From: Phycisphaeraceae bacterium
GTDB lineage: Bacteria; Planctomycetota; Phycisphaerae; Phycisphaerales; UBA1924
Assembly: GCA_019636555.1 (NCBI GenBank)
Contig: JAHBXH010000001.1
Coordinates: 2,080,928-2,144,927, forward strand
Direction: 5' to 3'
Length of the DNA stretch: 64,000 nt
The notes below the pieces were generated by a model. That model was not told the DNA's origin and ran no database searches. It worked only from the letters and a program-made list of their open reading frames with translations. Positions 46,928 through 62,803 of this stretch are shown piece by piece; position 1 is the stretch's first letter, and every line of letters begins with the position of its first letter. The position numbers and the translations under genes were made by a program.

Positions 46928-47038
46928 GAGATCCCTTTTCAAAAATGGACGGCGACTATAGGAAAGTCCGGCGCGCGGAATCGCCTCTCGAGATGATCTC
47001 ACGCCACTCGATCGCCGATTGGTTGTCTAACATCTGAT

Positions 47039-47107
47039 GGCGATGGAGTCCGCCGCTCGCTCCGCGAGAAACCGGCGCCCGCGAAGGGCCGACCTGATGA
47101 CTCCTAC
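47039..47107 (+). promoter_or_regulatory. fluoride riboswitch (crcB motif)
   Basis: The 5' conserved block GGCGATGGAGTCCGCC is at 47039-47054, AAAC at about 47068-47071, a GCCC/GGGC stem at about 47076-47089, and the 3' conserved block CTGATGACTCCTAC at 47094-47107. GGAGT (47045-47049) can pair with ACTCC (47100-47104), the diagnostic pseudoknot. CTCCTAC (47101-47107) is also a perfect complement of GTAGGAG (47142-47148), the ribosome site of crcB, giving a translational ON switch when fluoride binds. Confidence 0.9.
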
Positions 47108-47153
47108 TCAACTGGTTGCGGGCTTTCCGCACGCGGTTTGCGTAGGAGTTTTC

Positions 47154-47552
47154 GTGGCCGTCAATGTTCTTCTCAATTCCTCGCTCGTCTTCCTCGGCGC
47201 TGGCGCAGGAGGGTTGCTCCGCTACTGGATCGGCGCTGCCGTTCAGAACTGGTGGGGATCGACTTTTCCGATCGGCACCCTCCTCGTCAATGTTTCAGGG
47301 TGTCTCGCGATGGGGTTTTTCGCGACAGCGTGGATGGGGCCGGTGCTCGTGCGCGAGGAATGCCGGATCGCGATTCTGATCGGAGTGCTCGGCGGCTACA
47401 CCACATTCTCGACCTTCGGCCGCGAGACGCTCGAACTCATCTCCCGGGGCGAGTGGATTCGCGCCGGCGCGTATGTACTGGCGAGCGTGTTTGTGAGTCT
47501 TGTCGCGGTTTGGGCGGGCGCCGTCGCGGCGCACAAGATCTATGGAGCCTGA
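47154..47552 (+). CDS. crcB: CrcB/Fluc fluoride channel
   Basis: 132 residues from a GTG at 47154; ATGs at 47037 and 47097 lie inside the riboswitch and are rejected, while AGGAG at 47144-47148 fits this GTG. Four membrane helices carry LGAGAGGLLRYWIG, TLLVNVSGCLAMGFF with the Fluc Asn/Ser-Gly motif, LIGVLGGYTTFSTFGRETL with the conserved Gly-Gly-Tyr-Thr-Thr-Phe-Ser-Thr-Phe string. Fluc dimers let F- leave the cell selectively. Length is standard. DUF190 follows 2 bases after the stop. Confidence 0.93.
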   Translation: MAVNVLLNSSLVFLGAGAGGLLRYWIGAAVQNWWGSTFPIGTLLVNVSGCLAMGFFATAWMGPVLVREECRIAILIGVLGGYTTFSTFGRETLELISRGEWIRAGAYVLASVFVSLVAVWAGAVAAHKIYGA

Positions 47553-47554
47553 GA

Positions 47555-47935
47555 ATGGGAACTCCCCTCGCACACGGAATCTTTCATCCGCCGGCTCCTG
47601 CCCGGCGGCTCACGATCTACATCGGCGAGTCCGATCGGTGGCACGGGAAACCCCTGTACGAGGAGATCGTTCTCAAGGCGAGAGAATTGCACCTCGCCGG
47701 CGCAACAGTTCTGCGGGGGCCGATGGGATTCGGAGCGGACAGCCGCATCCACACAACAAAGATTCTGCGCTTGAGCGAAGATCTTCCGATTGTCGTGCAG
47801 ATCGTCGACAGCGCCGCAAACGTGTCGCTCCTGCTCGCGGAGCTTGAGGGCATGGTCAGCGGGGGGCTTGTGACGGTGGAGGACGTGGGCGTCGCAATCT
47901 ACAGCCCATCCGCAAAGTCTTCCGGCCGGGTTTGA
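47555..47935 (+). CDS. DUF190 family protein, partner of crcB
   Basis: 126 residues from ATG at 47555, immediately after the crcB stop. The DUF190 (PF02641-type) pattern is seen: RRLTIYIGESDRWHGKPLYE, EIVLKARELHLAGATVLRG and MGFGADSRIHTTKILRLSED, then LPIVVQIVDSA. It forms a GlnB-like ferredoxin fold in known members. DUF190 genes are often next to crcB in bacteria, so a supporting role in fluoride tolerance is likely; the biochemical function is not known. The SpoIIE gene ends 1 base after its stop on the other strand. Confidence 0.88.
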   Translation: MGTPLAHGIFHPPAPARRLTIYIGESDRWHGKPLYEEIVLKARELHLAGATVLRGPMGFGADSRIHTTKILRLSEDLPIVVQIVDSAANVSLLLAELEGMVSGGLVTVEDVGVAIYSPSAKSSGRV

Positions 47936-61333: not shown

Positions 61334-61342
61334 GTGCTACTC

Positions 61343-62803
61343 CTACTTGACCGCGATCTCGGAATCGAGGGCTCCAAGGGAATGCTGCCAGCCGCCGCCG
61401 AGTGCGCGGTATAGACGGATAGCCTGCCTCGTCACCTCTACTTCTGATCGCACCAGGTCAATATCGCTATCAAGCGCCCGACGCTCGGCGTCGAGCACAT
61501 CGAGGAACCGCACGATGCCGCGATCGTAATTCCGCCGGGTAAGGGTCGCGGCGCTCACGGCGGCGTCGCGTGACTCCACCAGCTGACGCCGGCGTAGCTC
61601 CTGCTGACCGTATTCGACAAGTGACCGCTCAACGTCTTCCACCGCCAGGAGAATCGACTGCTGATACCGGGCGTACTGCGCGTCGGCTCTTGCTTCGGCG
61701 GCGACGACCTGTGCCCGCAGCGCTCCGCCACGGAATACCGGCCACTGGATGGTCGGGCCAATCGCAAAGAAGCCGCTCTGGCTATTGAAGAGATCACCGA
61801 AGCTCACGCTTTCAAAGCCGGTGGCTCCGGTCAGGAAGAACCGAGGGTAGAGTTCGGCCACGGCGACGCCGACGTCCGCCGTGGCCGCGTGCAGGCCTCG
61901 TTCTGCGGCCCTGACATCCGGGCGACGCAGAAGCAGCTCGGACGGAAGCCCGACTGGAACCAAGTCACCGCGGACGACCAACGCGGCCGAGCCCTTCAGC
62001 GCGTCGGTGAGTTCACCCGGCATCCTGCCGGTGAGGACGGCGAGTCGATAGGTCGCAATGTCGATGGCGGCTTGGAGCAGCGGCTCCTGCGCCCTGGTGC
62101 GAGCGAGCTGCGACCGGGCCTGGTCAGAATCGATCTCGGAGGCGATGCCGGTCTTGAACTGACTCTGGACCAGCGTCGCCGTCTGGGACTGCACCTCGAT
62201 GTTGCGCCTGAGCACCGCGAGTTCCCGTTCGGTGCCGCGCAGGTCGGTGTACGCCAGGCCGACCTCGGCCGCGACCGCGACGAGAGCATCCGCGAGGCGC
62301 TCGTGGGCCTCTTGGACCCGTGCGGTCGCGGCTTCGTTCTCGCGGCGCACCGAACCAAAGACATCGATCTCCCAACTCGCTTCAAGGCCGGTCTGGTACA
62401 AGTCCGTCTCAACACTCGCGAGGCCGGCCTGCGAGAGGGGGCCGAGGAGCACTCCATTCTCGCTCGCACGCAGCCGCCGATAGCTCGCATTCGCGTCGAT
62501 GGACGGCATCCCACGTGAATCAGCGATGCCACGCGCCGCTCGCGCCTCACGAACGGCTGCGACGGCGATCCGAAGGTCCTGGTTGCGATGGACGGCGTCC
62601 TCGATGAGTCCCGTGAGGACCGGGTCCTGGAACGTCTCCCACCAGCGATCGGATGCGTGGGTGCCGGACGCGTGGAACGCCGGGTTCCGAAACGCCAGAG
62701 ACACCTCAGCGTCGGGGCGGATGTAGTCCGGACCGACCGCGCTGCACGACGCGAGAATTGCGGACGACATGAGCATCAGCAAGTGTCGTAGTGAGCGTGT
62801 CAT
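61343..62803 (-). CDS. outer-membrane efflux lipoprotein (NodT/OprM family)
   Basis: 486 residues from ATG at 62803, overlapping the RND stop by 4 bases. A signal peptide with lipobox LASC (Cys about 20) is followed by VGPDYIRPDAEV, the OprM/NodT N-terminal marker. The two repeats of the trimeric channel are seen in WWETFQDPVLTGLIEDAVHR, ASWEIDVFGSVRRENEAATA, LRRPDVRAAERGLHAATADV and GPTIQWPVFRGGALRAQV. It forms the outer-membrane exit duct of the pump coded upstream. A periplasmic adaptor gene would be expected in the same operon, probably beyond the right edge. Confidence 0.92.
   Translation of the reverse strand: MTRSLRHLLMLMSSAILASCSAVGPDYIRPDAEVSLAFRNPAFHASGTHASDRWWETFQDPVLTGLIEDAVHRNQDLRIAVAAVREARAARGIADSRGMPSIDANASYRRLRASENGVLLGPLSQAGLASVETDLYQTGLEASWEIDVFGSVRRENEAATARVQEAHERLADALVAVAAEVGLAYTDLRGTERELAVLRRNIEVQSQTATLVQSQFKTGIASEIDSDQARSQLARTRAQEPLLQAAIDIATYRLAVLTGRMPGELTDALKGSAALVVRGDLVPVGLPSELLLRRPDVRAAERGLHAATADVGVAVAELYPRFFLTGATGFESVSFGDLFNSQSGFFAIGPTIQWPVFRGGALRAQVVAAEARADAQYARYQQSILLAVEDVERSLVEYGQQELRRRQLVESRDAAVSAATLTRRNYDRGIVRFLDVLDAERRALDSDIDLVRSEVEVTRQAIRLYRALGGGWQHSLGALDSEIAVK

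Follow-up and report, generated by a model that had tools for sequence, protein, structure and literature searches.

The crcB gene of this Phycisphaeraceae bacterium is very probably controlled by a translational fluoride riboswitch, whose control probably extends to a coupled DUF190 gene; fluoride binding and the ON direction of the switch are those expected from the class to which the RNA belongs. The match of the aptamer to its family model, the mutually exclusive complements formed by the end of the aptamer, the conservation and covariation of this arrangement among relatives, and the placement of the Shine-Dalgarno (SD) site and start codon were established directly.

Fluoride riboswitch aptamer upstream of crcB

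The aptamer is located at 47030-47113 (+) of the window, i.e., the whole stretch of 64,000 nucleotides that was analysed. This region, which includes the flanks of the model, matches Rfam RF01734 over the full model (positions 1-64) with a cmscan score of 39.3 bits (E 2.3e-07 for the window). The gathering score of RF01734, which is its curated cut-off, is 34 bits, and the covariance-model search that had been suggested as a check on the presence of a crcB RNA is thus positive. A whole-genome covariance-model scan found a single copy of RF01734 in the 3.8 Mb genome.

Both ends of the crcB motif named in the sequence-only reading were located. The P1 stem-loop GGCGATGGAGTCCGCC at 47039-47054 (+), identified from the sequence and the Rfam alignment, contains in its loop GGAGT (47045-47049), the 5' strand of the pseudoknot, while the conserved 3' end of the aptamer, CTGATGACTCCTAC at 47094-47107 (+), contains ACTCC (47100-47104), the 3' strand of the pseudoknot, and also includes the anti-SD strand ACTCCTAC. 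GGAGT and ACTCC are complementary, as had been claimed, and follow the GGNGU and ACNCC patterns of the RF01734 pseudoknot strands. In one relative (L004), both strands are altered to GGTGT and ACGCC, and the pairing is kept via one T-G wobble. The aptamer core, the pseudoknot strands and a fluoride-related gene downstream, here crcB, are all shared with the known crcB-motif fluoride riboswitches of RF01734. As judged from its sequence, the sensor before crcB is an ordinary fluoride riboswitch in a Planctomycetota bacterium, for which fluoride binding would follow from its class. At least two fluoride riboswitches, on opposite strands and separated by a few hundred bases, are found in each of several genomes from the same class of Planctomycetota (G333:C31, G236:C57, G267:C2 and G235:C103), and one genome has up to six.

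Unlike the RF01734 consensus, the aptamer of the window carries a 13-nt hairpin, CUCGC-UCC-GCGAG, at 47056-47068 (+) in the junction after P1, part of which is a 12-nt insert in the Rfam alignment. The riboswitch is present in four of the eight genomes of the genus, and the other three that possess it (L005, L006 and L007) have a similar insert at the same place, near 1525-1540. The helix shows one compensatory change, in which G-C of L001 and L005 is A-U in L007, and is weaker in L006. Similar junction hairpins were found in L045, L046, L047, L099, L112, L120, L257 and L258 among the 178 aptamers examined, and their carriers are scattered archaea and bacteria. A narrow literature search, outside whose scope the original motif papers lay, found no description of an extra hairpin in a fluoride aptamer. 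It is conceivable, if somewhat doubtful, that the aptamers of this genus, together with those of a few unrelated archaea and bacteria, make up a sub-variant, in which a short helix projecting from the two-stem junction may tune the speed of folding or the affinity for fluoride.

The crcB gene, its start codon and its neighbours

The gene directly after the aptamer is the only crcB of the genome. It is located at 47154-47552 (+), has a GTG start and encodes a Fluc fluoride channel of 132 aa, which is recognized by Pfam CRCB (97.5 bits) and TIGR00494 (96.3 bits; cut-off 80.45) and matches CrcB structures in the PDB. A gene encoding a DUF190 protein (PF02641/COG1993; Pfam DUF190, 130.1 bits) starts 2 nt past crcB, at 47555-47935 (+), and is probably in one operon with crcB; this neighbour was likewise read directly in L003 and L005. 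A second DUF190 gene, found elsewhere in the genome (L269, 1369-1815), has no adjoining crcB. Upstream of the riboswitch, aspS is located on the opposite strand.

In the sequence-only reading, the position of the riboswitch was also taken to show that the upstream ATGs at 47037 and 47097 are not starts. The conclusion holds, but the argument from the window does not, because no stop interrupts the crcB frame over the 126 nt that precede GTG 47154, and either ATG is therefore eligible on the sequence of the window alone. What decides against these two starts is that an in-frame stop is found 12 nt before the corresponding crcB start in L005, L006 and L007 (48 nt in L004), so that the upstream ATGs are unused in the first three of these relatives, and that the CrcB family models align from about residue 11 of the short form onwards. 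ATG 47097, in addition, belongs to the conserved aptamer sequence CTGATGAC. On this comparison of sequences, the short form that begins at GTG 47154 is very probably the actual CrcB protein.

Predicted pairing of the aptamer end with the Shine-Dalgarno site

The anti-SD strand ACTCCTAC (47100-47107) is a perfect 8-nt complement of GTAGGAGT at 47142-47149 (+). The 7-nt complement previously noticed between CTCCTAC (47101-47107) and GTAGGAG (47142-47148) is correct and grows to 8 nt. All seven bases of CTCCTAC had also been assigned to both the ligand-bound aptamer and the SD pairing, which is right for CTCC, found in the pseudoknot together with A47100, but not for TAC, which is conserved in the aptamer and lies outside GGAGT/ACTCC. 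GTG 47154 follows the AGGAG ribosome site of GTAGGAGT at a distance of 5 nt. In the 16S rRNA locus of the genome, CCTCCT is found within GGATCACCTCCT.

By folding, ACTCCTAC and GTAGGAGT are predicted to form the two arms of an alternative (OFF) hairpin at 47100-47149 (+), with GTAGGAGT as the 3' arm and an inner stem formed within 47109-47140. The hairpin calculated for 47098-47153 has a free energy of -28.5 kcal/mol, with z = -5.4 against dinucleotide shuffles, none of which was as stable, and each SD base is unpaired with a probability of about 0.02 or less in the fold of 47030-47185; all these folds were calculated without pseudoknots. With the anti-SD strand masked, the SD site is still only partly open in the predicted ON fold (mean unpaired 0.32), owing to a possible pairing of AGGAGUU with AAUUCCU at 47175-47181 in the coding region. 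In the minimum-energy fold, ACAUCUGAUGGC (47030-47041) also pairs at long range with the start region, a feature noted in the fold of the window only. In the models of the window, about 6 to 10 kcal/mol are needed to release the anti-SD strand.

We propose that, when fluoride is absent, ACUCCUAC, the eight bases that end the aptamer (47100-47107), would pair with GUAGGAGU (47142-47149), by which the AGGAG ribosome site would be hidden and crcB kept off. When fluoride is present, ACUCC would be held in the pseudoknot by GGAGU (47045-47049), the anti-SD arm would be occupied and the ribosome could start at GUG 47154. Folding predicts a much higher stability for the OFF hairpin, so that fluoride would need to fix the aptamer before 47142-47149 has been transcribed, and the calculated cost of release suggests that the decision is made during transcription. 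The switch would thus be a fluoride-dependent ON switch, by analogy with its class. The 8-nt complement, the fold and the covariation described below agree with an SD-sequestering platform, in which a strand of the aptamer complements the SD in a pairing that excludes the ligand-bound fold.

Comparative evidence and alternative explanations

All six relatives of the same family that have an aptamer above the cut-off have the SD opposite the aptamer end in an anti-SD hairpin of the same layout; their spacers and the bases beside the SD core differ. The hairpins of five of the six are as exceptional as that of the window in that no shuffle was as good (z -3.5 to -5.3), and that of L002 is weaker (z -2.1). 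In a wider survey of 136 aptamers, taken from public genomes and from Planctomycetota relatives, a downstream arm that matches at least 7 of the 8 aptamer-end bases was found for 61%, vs 3.6% in shuffles. A T-run comes next after 47 of these strong arms and 24 lie just before a start codon, which indicates that the aptamer end is a switching strand shared by terminator and SD hairpins.

The pairing in the window could, in principle, be a by-product: GTAGGAG would be an SD for ordinary reasons, its match to the aptamer fortuitous, and any control would operate via another platform. AGGAG is indeed both the SD core and a complement of the conserved aptamer end, whose CUCCU complements any AGGAG, and five of the eight pairs come free in any such riboswitch. 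GTAGGAGT has three matches on both strands of the window vs 0.32 expected; two are the arms of the hairpin, and the third, at 61339-61346 (-), is placed as the SD of a 295-aa ORF that is unrelated and has no riboswitch. SD-like motifs near a possible start are found in only 6 of the 42 long ORFs in the window. Given the free pairs and the unrelated SD, a test needs bases outside the core. We therefore took 51 riboswitches of many lineages in which the SD was found by GGAG and a start codon only, with complementarity unused, and scored six positions beyond the SD core, counting the pairs by register. Watson-Crick pairs were found at 148 of the 306 flanking positions, compared with 118.6 +/- 6.3 in block shuffles, which keep column composition but do not correct for relatedness; none of 10,000 shuffles was as high (maximum, 142). 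With the family of the window left out, 117 flanking pairs remained vs 97.3 +/- 5.8, a level reached in 4 of 10,000 shuffles. The pair next to the core is G-C in L005-L007 and C-G in L002, L003, L004, L069 and L071. Covariation thus extends to bases that belong to neither the aptamer core nor the SD core, including those after the aptamer end, and this bears out the anti-SD reading of translational control and makes a fortuitous match very improbable.

Control could instead be transcriptional, with the hairpin at 47100-47149 and the TTTT that follows serving as an intrinsic terminator that fluoride prevents from acting. The stem does end in four T (47149-47152), and in 52 of the 136 surveyed riboswitches a terminator-like arm pairs with the equivalent strand of the aptamer. 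The run, however, is only four T followed by CGTG, the spacing between the stem arm and the start codon is that of an SD, a terminator scan found no intrinsic terminator, and L002-L007 have no T-run at the corresponding place. An intrinsic terminator after the aptamer was rejected on these grounds, the lack of a conserved U-tract past the stem making it unlikely, and we regard a transcriptional switch as scarcely credible. Rho, on the other hand, could act in addition to sequestration of the SD more than as an alternative to it: the message left untranslated would be terminated inside crcB, and both translation and message level would respond. This fits all the sequence evidence, and Rho-linked termination is reported for other translational riboswitches, to judge from the title of Bastet et al. 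(2017), cited in PMC13273304. We consider it unlikely here, and SD sequestration remains the preferred explanation.

Relation to known fluoride riboswitches

The fluoride riboswitches of Pseudomonas syringae and Burkholderia pseudomallei are translational controls (PMC13273304). Like the riboswitch of the window, they have no intrinsic terminator and act at translation; they belong to a different lineage, and the likeness considered here is in the mode of control. In the same 2026 study, 1901 fluoride riboswitches were measured and covariation models of the aptamer and the hairpin were built (PMC13273304). Translational fluoride riboswitches are therefore already known, and the arrangement in the window is known ground.

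The crcB riboswitch of Bacillus cereus, in contrast, is transcriptional (PMC11077080, PMC8752731). In the transcriptional types surveyed here, those of Bacillus and Paenibacillus included, the partner of the corresponding aptamer strand is a downstream arm GTAGGAGT that is part of a terminator, whereas GTAGGAGT of the window is the SD. In the aptamers of L144, L199 and L210, ACCTC replaces ACTCC, the P1 loop has GAGGT and the terminator arm has GTAGAGGT, so that a single strand covaries with both of its partners.

The findings fix the start of crcB, which an ORF caller could set 117 nt too early, within the aptamer, and extend a well-known class of RNA sensor to another lineage, leaving the understanding of the class unchanged. 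The covariation indicates that both forms of the switch, translational and transcriptional, rely on a single strand of the aptamer, whose sequence happens to be suited as the complement of both an SD and a terminator arm.
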